Source of the DNA: Devosia ginsengisoli
Lineage (GTDB): Bacteria > Pseudomonadota > Alphaproteobacteria > Rhizobiales > Devosiaceae
Direction: 5' to 3'
Assembly: GCF_024707105.1 (NCBI RefSeq)
Contig: NZ_JANQAJ010000006.1
Coordinates: 744,001 to 808,000 of the forward strand
DNA length: 64,000 nucleotides
This document shows, piece after piece, positions 36,424 to 40,013 of the stretch. How positions within the stretch are numbered: position 1 is the stretch's first letter; each line of letters starts with the position of its first letter. The position numbers and the translations under genes were made by a program. The notes under the pieces were generated by a model. It saw only the letters and a program-made list of their open reading frames with translations. It made no database searches and was not told the DNA's origin.

Positions 36424-36507
36424 AGACCTCATCCTGAGCTTGTCGAAGGACGAGGTCGTGGTGAGATCGTGCCACGCCTCGTGGTTCGACAGGCTCACCA
36501 TGAGGCT
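36424..36507. repeat. Dispersed hairpin repeat, family C, copy 5
   Basis: Arms CCTCATCCTGAGCTTGTCG (TCC/GGA) and GTGGTTCGACAGGCTCACC (CCA/TGG) show the same mixed-stem layout as copy 4. It fills the gap between the BaiN-type and beta-barrel genes. Confidence 0.8.
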
Positions 36508-36529
36508 GTTGGTGGCTTGATGCCCGCTC

Positions 36530-37618
36530 TTAGTCGAAGTGATGCACCAGGCCAAGGGTGACCTTGGTTGTCGGTATGGAATAGCGCTTGGTGCTGGGAC
36601 CGGGAACGCCATCCATCCGACCCAGCAGCAGCGCTTCACCGCGCAAGGCACTCTTGCCCCAGAGCGCATATTCAACGCCCCCGCCAAAGGCATAGGCGCC
36701 TGACGCCTCCACCAGCCCCACGCCGCCTGCGGCATAGGCCAGCACGCCCGGCGCCGGCACCACGCCGATGCGGGCCAGCGCCAGCGCATCGAGCCCGGCA
36801 TCGCCCGATGTGTCGAAATTGGCCCCGAGCTGCACTTCGACGCCGGCCCGCATCATATCGCCCAGCGCATGATTATAGCCGGCCAGCCCTCCCATTTCGA
36901 AGCGGCTCAGGTGCCAGCCATGGCCGTAATCGTCGTAGAAGTTGAACTGCGGATCGGTCAGCCCGCCGATATTGATGCCGGCATAGAGTCCGGAAAAATC
37001 GGTCACCGGACCCGTATTGAATGTCGTCGCAGCCGGTCCGCCATCGAGCTGCCATATGGCCCCCGACGTCACCCGCATGGCCGAAATGGCCGGGATGTCA
37101 TTGCCATTGGGCACCGGGCCGAGCTGGCCGATGCCGGCCGCTTCCAGCCGCAGGGCCATATTTGACGTCACCATCACCTCGGCGCCCATGCCGGCCTCGA
37201 AGGCCCAGCCTTCGCCCATGCGGCCGGCGCCGCCGAGCAGGTAGAACAGCGTATTGTCGCCGGCGGCAAAGCCCAGCCGGGCCAGGGCCATGGCGCGCAG
37301 ATAGGCCGAGCTGGAAAAATCGGTGGCCACCGTCGCCTGCAATTCGGCGCCCACGACCACGCCCGGCGCGACGGGCTGGTTCCAGCCGATAACGGCGCCG
37401 ATTTCGGGGCGGATTTCCCAGCCGGTGGTGTTGAAATTGTTCTTGCGCGCCGAGATCGGGCCGAGCAGCACGCCGGCATAGAGCCCGTCAAAGGCGCTGG
37501 GCGCGGTGAATTCTGCAGTGATGTCGGGGCTGAAATAAAGCGCGGTATCCTGTGCTACCGCGCCGCCCGTCAGCGCCAACAGACCCGCCCAAACCCCCAC
37601 ACATACGCCAGCACGCAT
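36530..37618 (-). CDS. Outer-membrane beta-barrel protein with internally duplicated domain
   Basis: This 362-residue protein has a signal peptide (1-22) and two halves of similar design. Each half opens with FDGLYAGVLLGP or FSGLYAGINIGG and continues with alternating strands; the first half ends near residue 190 and the second at the C-terminal VHHFD. The strands, Gly-rich turns and terminal aromatic fit an outer-membrane Opa/OmpA-like barrel or a two-barrel fusion. I cannot name a family. A CtrA-like box lies 64 bp upstream. ATG 37618 gives the signal peptide; the upstream open frame is not coding. Confidence 0.78.
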   Translation of the reverse strand: MRAGVCVGVWAGLLALTGGAVAQDTALYFSPDITAEFTAPSAFDGLYAGVLLGPISARKNNFNTTGWEIRPEIGAVIGWNQPVAPGVVVGAELQATVATDFSSSAYLRAMALARLGFAAGDNTLFYLLGGAGRMGEGWAFEAGMGAEVMVTSNMALRLEAAGIGQLGPVPNGNDIPAISAMRVTSGAIWQLDGGPAATTFNTGPVTDFSGLYAGINIGGLTDPQFNFYDDYGHGWHLSRFEMGGLAGYNHALGDMMRAGVEVQLGANFDTSGDAGLDALALARIGVVPAPGVLAYAAGGVGLVEASGAYAFGGGVEYALWGKSALRGEALLLGRMDGVPGPSTKRYSIPTTKVTLGLVHHFD

Positions 37619-37681
37619 GACCAATCCCCCGTCTCGCGCTATTGCCGCGCGAAGACCTTCACAGCGCAATAATCTAAACCC

Positions 37682-37697
37682 TTAATGGCGTCTTAAC
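37682..37697. promoter_or_regulatory. CtrA-like binding box TTAA-N7-TTAAC
   Basis: TTAAtggcgtcTTAAC is an exact consensus match, 64 bp upstream of the beta-barrel protein start. Confidence 0.6.
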
Positions 37698-37749
37698 ATA
37701 GTCCTTGTTGCAATGGCGCATCACCGATGCTGGCGGTGTGGCAATTTCA

Positions 37750-37777
37750 TTGACTCTTTCCTATTTGGGCGTATGAG
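37750..37777 (+). promoter_or_regulatory. Candidate sigma70-type promoter for asd
   Basis: TTGACT (37750-37755) and TATGAG (37772-37777) are 16 bp apart. They lie about 230 bp upstream of asd, so the transcript would include the leader ORF and hairpins described below. Confidence 0.45.
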
Positions 37778-37809
37778 AAGTCCTGCTTTTCAACCGAAGC
37801 AGTCATTCG

Positions 37810-37905
37810 ATGCGCAGCCTTTTCGATAGTGCGGACCTCGCAACCACCCGGCGTTTCGCCGGTGGCGTCGCTGTGTCGATGACCAAAACCACCAAAACCG
37901 CCTGA
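37810..37905 (+). promoter_or_regulatory. Putative asd leader peptide (Met-Thr-Lys-rich) with attenuator
   Basis: A 31-codon ORF runs from ATG 37810, and its last eight codons (ATG 37879 to TGA 37905) encode MTKTTKTA. Four are Thr (ACC) and two Lys (AAA), preceded by Met. Thr, Lys and Met are end products of the pathway fed by Asd. Just after the stop, TCTCCC-GACG-GGGAGA (37923-37938) can fold, and CCCCGG-GTCG with CGAC-GGGG (about 37914-37935) is an alternative, competing fold. This layout matches ribosome-mediated attenuation. A 5' copy of ATG 37810 or only ATG 37879 could be the true start; the ribosome-binding sites are weak. Confidence 0.5.
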
Positions 37906-38009
37906 CGCTTTTCCCCGGGTCGTCTCCCGACGGGGAGAGGCTCAAAGCACTGACCGCGATGGATAGCCATCGCGCGGGGGCGGAAATGGCAAGGGACTGG
38001 AGTTCCAAA

Positions 38010-39050
38010 ATGGGTTATCGCGTCGCTGTCGTCGGTGCCACAGGCAATGTGGGCCGGGAAGTTCTCAATATTCTGGCCGAACGCAAGTTCCCCGCCGACG
38101 AGGTGATTGCCCTGGCGTCGTCCCGCTCGATCGGCCGGGAAATTTCCTATGGCGACAAGATCCTCAAGGCCAAGAATCTAGACGATTTCGATTTCAAGGG
38201 CGTCGATTTCGCCATCATGTCGGCGGGTGGTTCCATCTCCAAGGACTGGGCCCCGCGCATCGCCGCCTCGGGCTGCATCGTCATCGATAATTCCAGCTAC
38301 TGGCGCTACAATTCGGACGTGCCGCTGATCGTGCCGGAAGTGAACGGGCAGGTGCTCGACCGCTGGCTGGCCGATCCCAAGCGCGGCAATATCATTGCCA
38401 ATCCCAATTGCTCGACGGCCCAGCTCGTGGTGGCGCTCAAGCCGCTGCATGATGCCGCAAAGATCAAGCGCATCGTCGTCTCGACCTATCAGTCGGTCTC
38501 CGGCGCCGGCAAGGAGGGCGTGGACGAGCTCTGGAACCAGACCAAGGGCATTTTCGTCAACGATACGGCGACGCCCGGCAAGTTCCCCAAGCAGATCGCC
38601 TTCAACGTCATCCCGCATATCGATGTGTTCATGGAAGACGGCTACACCAAGGAAGAGTGGAAGGTGCTGGCCGAAACCAAGAAGATTCTCGATCCCAAGA
38701 TCAAGGTGACCTGCACTGCCGTGCGCGTGCCGGTCTTCGTGGGTCATTCCGAAGCGGTCAATATCGAATTCGAGAACCCGATTTCGGCCGACGAGGCGCG
38801 CGACATCCTGCGCGAGGCACCGGGCATTTCGGTCGTCGACAAGCGCGAGCCGGGCGGTTACGCCACCCCGGTCGAGTCAGTGGGCGAATACGACACCTTC
38901 GTCTCCCGCATCCGCGAGGACAATACGGTCGAAAACGGTCTGGCCATCTGGGTCGTTTCCGACAATCTGCGCAAGGGCGCCGCGCTCAATACGATCCAGA
39001 TCGCCGAAGAACTCATTGCGCGCGGGCTGAAGGCGCGCCTGGCGGCGTAG
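38010..39050 (+). CDS. asd: Aspartate-semialdehyde dehydrogenase
   Basis: Asd reduces aspartyl-phosphate to aspartate semialdehyde, the branch point for Lys/DAP, Thr and Met synthesis. The 346 residues show the NADP motif VVGATGNVGREVL, the catalytic Cys134 in NPNCSTAQLV, YQSVSGAGKEGVDEL, and a C-terminal GLAIWVVSDNLRKGAALNTIQIAE. ATG 38010 is chosen because the family starts here (MGYRVAVVGATG); GGAGTTCC precedes it. The 391-bp gap upstream holds the promoter and attenuator features. dapF of the Lys/peptidoglycan branch is also in this window. Confidence 0.97.
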   Translation: MGYRVAVVGATGNVGREVLNILAERKFPADEVIALASSRSIGREISYGDKILKAKNLDDFDFKGVDFAIMSAGGSISKDWAPRIAASGCIVIDNSSYWRYNSDVPLIVPEVNGQVLDRWLADPKRGNIIANPNCSTAQLVVALKPLHDAAKIKRIVVSTYQSVSGAGKEGVDELWNQTKGIFVNDTATPGKFPKQIAFNVIPHIDVFMEDGYTKEEWKVLAETKKILDPKIKVTCTAVRVPVFVGHSEAVNIEFENPISADEARDILREAPGISVVDKREPGGYATPVESVGEYDTFVSRIREDNTVENGLAIWVVSDNLRKGAALNTIQIAEELIARGLKARLAA

Positions 39051-39065
39051 GGTCCGCACCAGACT

Positions 39066-39094
39066 GCCCCCCCCCCCTTGTGGGGAGGGAGCCA
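39066..39094. repeat. Family A repeat fragment with a long C run
   Basis: A run of 11 C (39067-39077) followed by TTGTGGGGAGGGA is one arm of a family A element, truncated. It lies between asd and EamA-1. Confidence 0.6.
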
Positions 39095-39136
39095 GATCGA
39101 GCGCCTGCCGCCTCGCACTCCAAACTGCAAGTACCC

Positions 39137-40013
39137 ATGCCCCTCCGCGACATAGCCCTGGCCCTCGGCGTCGTCCTCATCTGGGGGCTCAATTTCGTCG
39201 CCATCAAATGGGGCGTCGACGAGATTTCGCCCTTCCTGCTGACCGCGTTGCGTTATCTCGGCTGCGCCCTGCCGGCCGTCTTCTTCATCCGCAAGCCCAA
39301 AGTGAGCTGGGGGCTGCTCGTCGCCTATGGAATGACCGTCGGCGTGCTGCAATTCGGCTTCCTGTTCACCGCCGTCGGGCTGGGCATGCCGGCCGGGCTG
39401 GCGAGCCTGGTCATGCAGATGCAGGTGTTTTTCACCATGGCGCTGGCCGTGCTGCTGCTGGGCGACCGGCCGACCATGCTGCATCTGGCAGGTGCCGCCA
39501 TTGCCCTTGTCGGCCTCGGCACGATCGGGGCCGAGCATATCGGCGGGGCCGTGCTGGTGCCGCTGCTGCTGACACTGGTCGCCGCCGGTTTCTGGGCCAT
39601 TTCCAATATCCTCACCAAGCAGGCCGGCCAGGTCGACATGCTGGGTTTCGTGGTCTGGGGGAGCCTGGTGCCACCGCTGCCCATGCTGGCCCTGTCGCTG
39701 CTGGCCGAAGGGCCGCAGGCCGTCGCCGGGCTTCTCACCATCAGCCCGCAGGCCATCTTTTTCGGTGCTGTTCATCGCCTATGGCTCGACCCTGGTCGGC
39801 TATGGCTGCTGGGCGGTGCTGCTGGGCCGGCACAAGGCCAGCGTCATCGCGCCCTTCTCGCTGCTGGTGCCGGTGGTCGGCTTTGCCGCCGCCTTCGTCT
39901 TCCTGGGCGAACAGGTCAGCGCGTTGGAAGTGGCGGGAAGCCTGCTGATCTTTGCCGGCCTTGTCCTCAATGTGTTCGGGCCGCGCCTGCTGGCGCGGTT
40001 GCGGGTGGCCTGA
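39137..40013 (+). pseudogene. EamA/DMT family transporter 1, frameshifted
   Basis: An EamA exporter of about 291 residues is read from ATG 39137 with the expected ten membrane segments and the LLGDRPTMLHLAG internal repeat signature. The frame is good to QAIFF at 39757 and is then lost: the C-terminal 83 codons lie one frame over and end at TGA 40013. The break is at a run of five T (39758-39762). Four T would read Ile-Phe-Ser-Val-Leu-Phe-Ile-Ala-Tyr-Gly and continue to the stop. In the unshifted frame the ORF runs on into EamA-2. Its stop overlaps EamA-2 as TGATG, so the two genes normally form one unit. Confidence 0.8.

Follow-up and report, generated by a model that had tools for sequence, protein, structure and literature searches.

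How a single enzyme is adjusted to several end products is an old question for the aspartate pathway, in which asd feeds the branches toward lysine (and the diaminopimelate of the cell wall), threonine and methionine, and for which multivalent control of asd is known in E. coli. The asd locus of Devosia ginsengisoli raises this question in a specific form, as the gene is preceded by a short open reading frame (ORF) of which the last eight codons comprise four Thr codons, two Lys codons and one Met codon. An original prediction, made from the sequence of the 64,000-nt stretch of DNA that contains the locus (the window), proposed that this ORF controls asd by ribosome-mediated attenuation. Here we ask whether such a leader is present, which amino acids it would sense, and at which level it would act.

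The predicted elements of the locus were readily identified (Table 1). The leader ORF, which starts with ATG, comprises 31 codons and ends in M-T-K-T-T-K-T-A-stop, as well as its codon counts, were confirmed, and the gene that starts 104 nt behind it was identified as asd by the NCBIfam model TIGR01296 (456.9 bits vs. a cut-off of 324.2). The promoter-like TTGACT/TATGAG motif is present as described and its block recurs in the genus, though it is absent from the output of a stricter consensus scan of the region. Transcription from this motif would start near position 37785, placing the ORF and the hairpins that follow it in the transcript. Within the ORF, the part upstream of the control codons has an uninterrupted stem of at least six pairs in 56 of 72 congeneric loci, vs. 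33% of mononucleotide shuffles. The pattern ACNAARACNACNAARACN occurs a single time in the genome (4.37 Mb, 98.6% complete), at the asd leader; its reversed-pattern control has zero occurrences in the same genome, and no second copy of the control-codon run is found elsewhere in it.

Table 1. Features of the asd locus; positions are those of the window.
Feature	Position	Strand	Sequence or description	Support
Promoter-like block	37750–37777	+	TTGACT (37750–37755), 16-nt spacer, TATGAG (37772–37777)	TTGA...TATG block in 68/72 congeneric loci
Leader ORF	37810–37905	+	MRSLFDSADLATTRRFAGGVAVSMTKTTKTA-stop	Upstream ATG and open frame in 72/72 congeneric loci
GC-rich hairpin inside the ORF	37844–37865	+	5' of the control codons	In the minimum-energy fold
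Putative control codons	37882–37902	+	ACC AAA ACC ACC AAA ACC (Thr-Lys-Thr-Thr-Lys-Thr), then GCC (Ala)	KTTKT in 66/72 congeneric loci
Candidate helix D, 5' strand	37898–37902	+	CCGCC (final bases of the sixth control codon, Thr, plus the Ala codon)	Partner 37979–37983
Hairpin B	37907–37941	+	GCTTTTCCCC...GGGGAGAGGC, one base after the stop codon	Fold and comparison
Hairpin C	37955–37974	+	CGCGATGG...CCATCGCG	6/8 pairs with two-sided changes, 95% of cells paired (genus)
Candidate helix D, 3' strand	37979–37983	+	GGCGG	27–31 nt 5' of the asd ATG
Hairpin E	37993–38006	+	GGGAC-TGGA-GTTCC, holds the asd Shine-Dalgarno GGAG (37999–38002)	
asd, aspartate-semialdehyde dehydrogenase, 346 aa	38010–39050, including the stop codon	+		TIGR01296 and NF011456 above cut-off

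Two neighbors of the locus were recorded in passing. Downstream of asd (39137–40010), an EamA-type transporter gene is split over two frames at approximately 39763–39765, with PF00892 matches in both pieces, reflecting either a frameshift or a sequencing error. On the minus strand, divergent from asd (36533–37669), lies a gene for what looks like an outer-membrane beta-barrel protein (PF13505).

We analyzed the conservation of the leader in the genus. The asd gene was detected in all 75 congeneric genomes, and leader DNA in 72 of them; the other three (G041, G048, and G054), in which the asd match begins only at residue 100 or later, were left out. At all 72 loci an ORF with a Thr/Lys tail ends 100–110 nt upstream of the asd ATG, and each leader has at least three Thr and at least one Lys within its last eight codons. 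The conservation of the cluster in relatives with aligned flanks, on which the original prediction had staked its case, is thereby borne out. The six leaders without KTTKT read KTSKT (2), KTSTKT (2), KSTKT (1), and KTTTT (1). An ATG 29–34 codons upstream of the stop, followed by an open frame, is found at every locus (of the two alternative frames, one is open at 6 loci and the other at 48). The N-terminal part of the peptide drifts, while the Thr/Lys tail next to the stop stays; in genomes G012 and G024, whose asd is the least similar (83%), the stretch that matches by BLAST is limited to the control codons and the next hairpin (query 183–242 and 184–237, respectively).

Among 39 distinct 31-codon ORFs, the differences at codon positions 1, 2, and 3 are 0.337, 0.274, and 0.388, and the synonymous share of codons with a single difference is 0.417 in frame vs. 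0.336 and 0.210 in the shifted frames, an excess that speaks modestly for coding. Taken alone, the leader has a folding energy that is no more than mildly unusual (z of -1.96, with 9 of 200 shuffles as good). As judged from these comparisons, it is conservation, rather than folding energy, that carries the case for the leader being real. The observation itself is real and beyond chance.

How far the leader extends was addressed with a covariance model built from 40 genus leaders. It matched 120 of the 136 genomes of the family, and of the 49 family matches outside the genus (L152–L200) all except one have asd behind them, the exception being a weak second match in genome G116. In the order sample 19 of 297 genomes were matched, including six genomes of another family (f22), and in the class sample two of 289, one of which is the source genome itself and the other (G507) has no adjoining asd. 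The second G116 match (E 0.006) and the G507 match (E 0.0009) were taken as chance, since the surrounding DNA contains no asd.

Because the covariance model is tied to the Devosia structure, the regions upstream of asd were then inspected directly. By thresholds of our choosing, a leader was called present with at least five K or T in the last 10 codons, at least three T, at least one K, and a stop codon 60–170 nt upstream of asd. An ORF with a Thr/Lys tail precedes asd at 42 of 72 named loci outside the Devosiaceae, which are the best 80 of 589 matches minus eight judged to be Devosiaceae. Leader-bearing loci belong to Rhizobium, Sinorhizobium, Neorhizobium, Agrobacterium, Brucella/Ochrobactrum, Mesorhizobium, Aminobacter, Roseibium, Hoeflea, Kaistia, Chthonobacter, Aestuariivirga, and others. 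The thresholds were passed by 14 of 40 order loci, hand-picked at one or a few per family among the matches listed; loci L204 and L208 (interrupted runs) and L303 (a Bartonella MAG, too few T) fall just outside. No leader was found by these thresholds at 30 of the 72 named loci, including those of Bradyrhizobium, Hyphomicrobium, Ancylobacter, Bartonella, Aureimonas, Methyloligella, Rhodovulum, and Sneathiella.

The leaderless loci include four of Bradyrhizobium (L273, L284, L311, and L314), two of Bartonella (L312 and L315), and two of Hyphomicrobium (L258 and L267). Bartonella is leaderless although it is near leader-bearing families, and the Bartonella MAG has a weak version. Absence at these loci could reflect either loss or another control.

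In a scoring of amino-acid pairs at the 72 named loci that did not presuppose Thr and Lys, Lys+Thr ranks first among all 190 pairs. At least seven of the last 10 codons belong to this pair at 34 loci, with T+V next at 8 and the best reverse-strand pair at 2. The lead is less clear at a cut of at least six of 10 (Lys+Thr 42, T+V 30, A+T 27, best reverse-strand pair 6), as V or A is the final residue of many tails. The 40 picked order loci again place Lys+Thr first, with 11 at seven or more, followed by A+T with 4. Across the order, this sequence evidence strongly supports a predicted leader peptide upstream of asd whose control codons are those for Thr and Lys.

The third proposed signal fared differently. 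The Thr/Lys cluster is conserved across the order, and Met is unsupported beyond the genus: 62 of the 72 genus leaders have a Met codon among their last 10, vs. 16 of 109 others, so that Met as a control signal was rejected outside the genus. The Met codon of the genus leaders could equally well be an internal start.

The choice of codons in the tails was examined as well. For Lys, the 72 genus leaders use AAA 145 times and AAG not once within their last 10 codons; D. ginsengisoli asd itself has 23 AAG and no AAA. Outside the genus, the tails of the 109 leaders contain 225 AAA and 32 AAG, and 73 named asd genes contain 221 AAA and 1347 AAG. The genome encodes tRNA-Lys with the anticodons UUU and CUU and tRNA-Thr with GGU, UGU, and CGU. 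The AAA codons may have been kept either for sensing or for the RNA fold. For Thr, the codons vary outside the genus (ACC 308, ACG 145, ACA 22, ACT 19) while the amino acid is kept, which points to selection on the amino acid and not on the RNA alone.

A comparable element has been described in a rhizobium. In the available part of the report, SEP5 of Sinorhizobium meliloti is a translated short ORF in which six Thr codons and three Lys codons are found close to the 3' end, located in the 5' UTR of a gene named 'aspartate dehydrogenase', suggested to encode a leader peptide, and called conserved in Sinorhizobium only (PMC10117765). The asd leader of S. americanum has six T and three K in its last 12 codons, and two Sinorhizobium loci of our set (L276 and L287) match SEP5 as described there; we therefore take SEP5 to be the same element and its gene to be asd. 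The Devosia leader has the same defining features, a Thr/Lys cluster in a short ORF within the asd 5' UTR, the latter placement being deduced from the promoter block. While SEP5 is called Sinorhizobium-only in that part of the report, which presents neither an RNA structure nor a response to amino acids, the leaders found here belong to many families and have RNA helices, with a version of its own in Devosia. No other papers on an asd leader of this kind were found in the open-access library that was searched, and the available parts of PMC4117421 and PMC12218461 hold nothing on one.

SEP5 also bears on the possibility that the peptide has a function of its own, or that the ORF is a constitutive upstream ORF, with a Thr/Lys tail that is no sensor. 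Translation of SEP5, and the recovery of its tagged form solely in the soluble fraction (PMC10117765), would suit such a peptide. We give this explanation scarcely any credence, as the N-terminal part drifts and the length differs while the tail at the stop is kept, and as this tail spells out end products of the pathway that asd serves.

The arrangement of a control-codon ORF followed immediately by a strong GC-rich hairpin is what classical attenuation of the thr, his, or leu type, with an intrinsic terminator and with Met, Thr, and Lys as signals, would predict. The combination of a GC-rich hairpin and a U-run typical of those attenuators is, however, not seen in the asd leader. No terminator-like site was detected in 37600–38100, a result that is weak for one region as shuffles average 0.7, and none of the 72 genus leaders has an 8-nt window with at least five T from 20 nt past the stop codon onward. 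Such windows are rare in relatives too, with 5 of 54 leaders in the family and f22, 0 of 14 in the order sample, and 7 of 49 among the named loci. Since neither the asd leader nor, as a rule, its relatives have a U-run terminator, textbook transcription attenuation does not fit. With the scarcity of tail Met codons outside the genus counting against it as well, the standard form put forward in the original prediction appears very unlikely.

A trpE-like gene of the same genome (PF04715, locus L323), considered as a positive control for the terminator search, lies closely behind another reading frame. In contrast to the trp attenuator known from Sinorhizobium, it has no Trp-rich leader in the stretch examined, and so did not serve as a control. 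The asd leader is matched by no Rfam 15 family: a search of 36500–39500 gave two matches, both far below their gathering scores and neither within 37750–38010.

The two hairpins predicted after the stop codon exist (B and C in Table 1), but they are not mutually exclusive as had been claimed, both being part of the same minimum-energy fold. The alternative pairings that do exist use other segments, in which either the last codons pair with 37979–37983 (helix D) or an inner GGG/CCC pairing forms. Covariation was assessed in an alignment of 40 of the 72 genus leaders, from which near-duplicates had been removed. Covariation within the genus is concentrated in hairpin C; hairpin B has 98% of its cells paired and is nearly invariant, with one pair showing a two-sided change. 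Neither helix D (90% of cells paired) nor hairpin E (95.5%) has a two-sided change in the genus. For all proposed helices together, 93.7% of cells are paired vs. 88.1% in shuffles, and 75 cells have two-sided changes vs. 23.9; the number of helix pairs with any two-sided change is 7 vs. 6.1, a value of 7 being reached by 164 of 500 shuffles. Sliding the partner strands by 1–3 columns reduces pairing to 37–53%.

A second, structure-fitted alignment comprised 55 loci of our choosing from the genus, the family, and f22. Two-sided changes are found there in 8 of the 10 pairs of hairpin B and in all five pairs of hairpin E (82% of cells paired). Those of helix D appear solely in this alignment (e.g., GC 13, CG 10, GU 5 at one pair), with approximately 80% of cells paired. 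An alignment-free swap test, in which the control codons of each leader were paired with its own vs. others' pre-Shine-Dalgarno (pre-SD) region, gave p 0.004 over 88 of the 181 leaders (near-duplicates removed), and p 0.04 for the family with f22, 0.14 for the genus, and 0.16 for the rest; own pairing exceeds the column mean for no more than 51 of the 88. Compared with dinucleotide shuffles, the codon/pre-SD pairing has a mean z of -1.12 within the genus; in the other groups, with -0.27 to -0.36, it scarcely surpasses the shuffles. Helix D, whose strands show weak co-evolution, is on these grounds plausible, not proven, in Devosia and its kin. For pairing of the tract after the stop codon with the pre-SD region, the swap test gave p 0.057 over the 88 leaders and 0.08 to 0.44 in subgroups, and the mean z against shuffles is -0.11 for the genus, -0.76 for the remaining Devosiaceae, and -0.67 for f22. 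For the other families, among them the Rhizobiaceae, it is +0.06, so that pairing there does not surpass composition-preserving shuffles.

We lean toward the view that the asd leader is a ribosome-operated sensor of the supply of Thr-tRNA and Lys-tRNA, acting near the asd ribosome binding site (RBS). When Thr or Lys is short, the ribosome translating the leader would slow at the codons ACC AAA ACC ACC AAA ACC and would cover a strand otherwise paired with the region just upstream of the asd RBS, leading to expression of asd. When the ribosome finishes and leaves, the RNA would close and asd would be lowered. We infer that the ribosome stalls here, that Thr and Lys are the signals, and that the switch has this direction; it would act mainly on translation of asd, not on transcription.

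Such a switch was modeled for 36 of the 72 genus loci by folding only the RNA downstream of the ribosome edge. As the edge advances from 30 nt ahead of the stop codon to the stop codon itself, the expected number of codon/pre-SD pairs falls from 7.9 to 0, and the unpaired share of the GGAG increases from 0.52 to 0.68; with 90 nt of upstream RNA, this share is already 0.59. The -20..+3 window of asd is flat as the ribosome advances (0.45–0.51 in the genus), and ranges over 0.52–0.57 in the family and f22, 0.49–0.59 in the order sample, and 0.47–0.58 at the named loci. In this edge folding of genus leaders, a ribosome on the control codons would break helix D, and exposure of the RBS changes little.

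From the Rhizobiaceae, Phyllobacteriaceae, and Brucellaceae, 32 leaders were picked, 27 aligned, and 15 of Rhizobiaceae type folded. The consensus fold of these 15 pairs a GCUCUCU soon after the stop codon with an AGAGAGC just before the asd ATG, a helix that is nearly invariant and has no two-sided change among them. The RBS motif searched for was present in 15 of 15 and 8 of 11 leaders in the ribosome-edge folding. At equilibrium, the Rhizobiaceae-type RBS is closed (unpaired share 0.10–0.21) until the ribosome edge is approximately 21 nt past the stop codon, and therefore no switch at the Thr/Lys codons is reproduced. The modeled fold would fit control at the RBS, and co-transcriptional folding may matter. 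Overall, a ribosome-position switch in the asd leader is weakly supported by these models.

A more specific form of the sensor can be offered tentatively. It would be a widespread attenuator of asd translation that responds to two amino acids and needs no terminator, in which the RBS region is closed by the codon run in Devosia or by the tract after the stop codon in the Rhizobiaceae, with RNA wiring that differs by family around one kind of peptide. The same peptide and codon evidence would fit equally well if translation of the leader governed access of Rho, or of another factor, with transcription stopping before asd when Thr and Lys are plentiful. The pyrimidine-rich RNA downstream of the leader stop codon, the lack of a general U-run terminator, and the weakness of the RBS switch in folding are all in line with this possibility; yet the conserved elements at the asd RBS (hairpin E and the Rhizobiaceae RBS pairing) would be needless for a purely transcriptional switch, and we regard this possibility, the main rival of the sensor acting at the RBS, as rather unlikely.

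The ribosome-operated sensor that we favor can be placed beside known systems. The thrL leader of the enteric thr operon has Thr and Ile codons and an intrinsic terminator with a U-run; the asd leader resembles it in that RNA hairpins follow a short ORF enriched in codons for end products of the pathway, and differs in using Thr and Lys, without a general U-run. The translation attenuators of erm genes respond to antibiotics. Like these, the asd leader would open a downstream RBS through the position of a ribosome on the leader ORF, whereas its codons are those of amino acids and the opening of the RBS is weakly reproduced by folding. The trpL/rnTrpL leader of S. meliloti has Trp codons and acts by transcription attenuation that yields a small RNA. 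It shares with the asd leader that it is an alphaproteobacterial amino-acid leader peptide (PMC10117765).

The kind of system is known, and a rhizobial example was already suspected. The present analysis adds the leader of Devosia and of many other families of the order together with its RNA elements, finds no general terminator, and rejects Met as a signal outside the genus. These loci provide a natural collection of leaders with a conserved peptide tail and changing RNA wiring. If the proposed function is true, one leader would integrate the supply of two branch products at asd, the shared branch-point enzyme, and a leader that reads Thr and Lys at the ribosome would be a simple answer to the control of one enzyme by several end products for many Hyphomicrobiales, including rhizobia.
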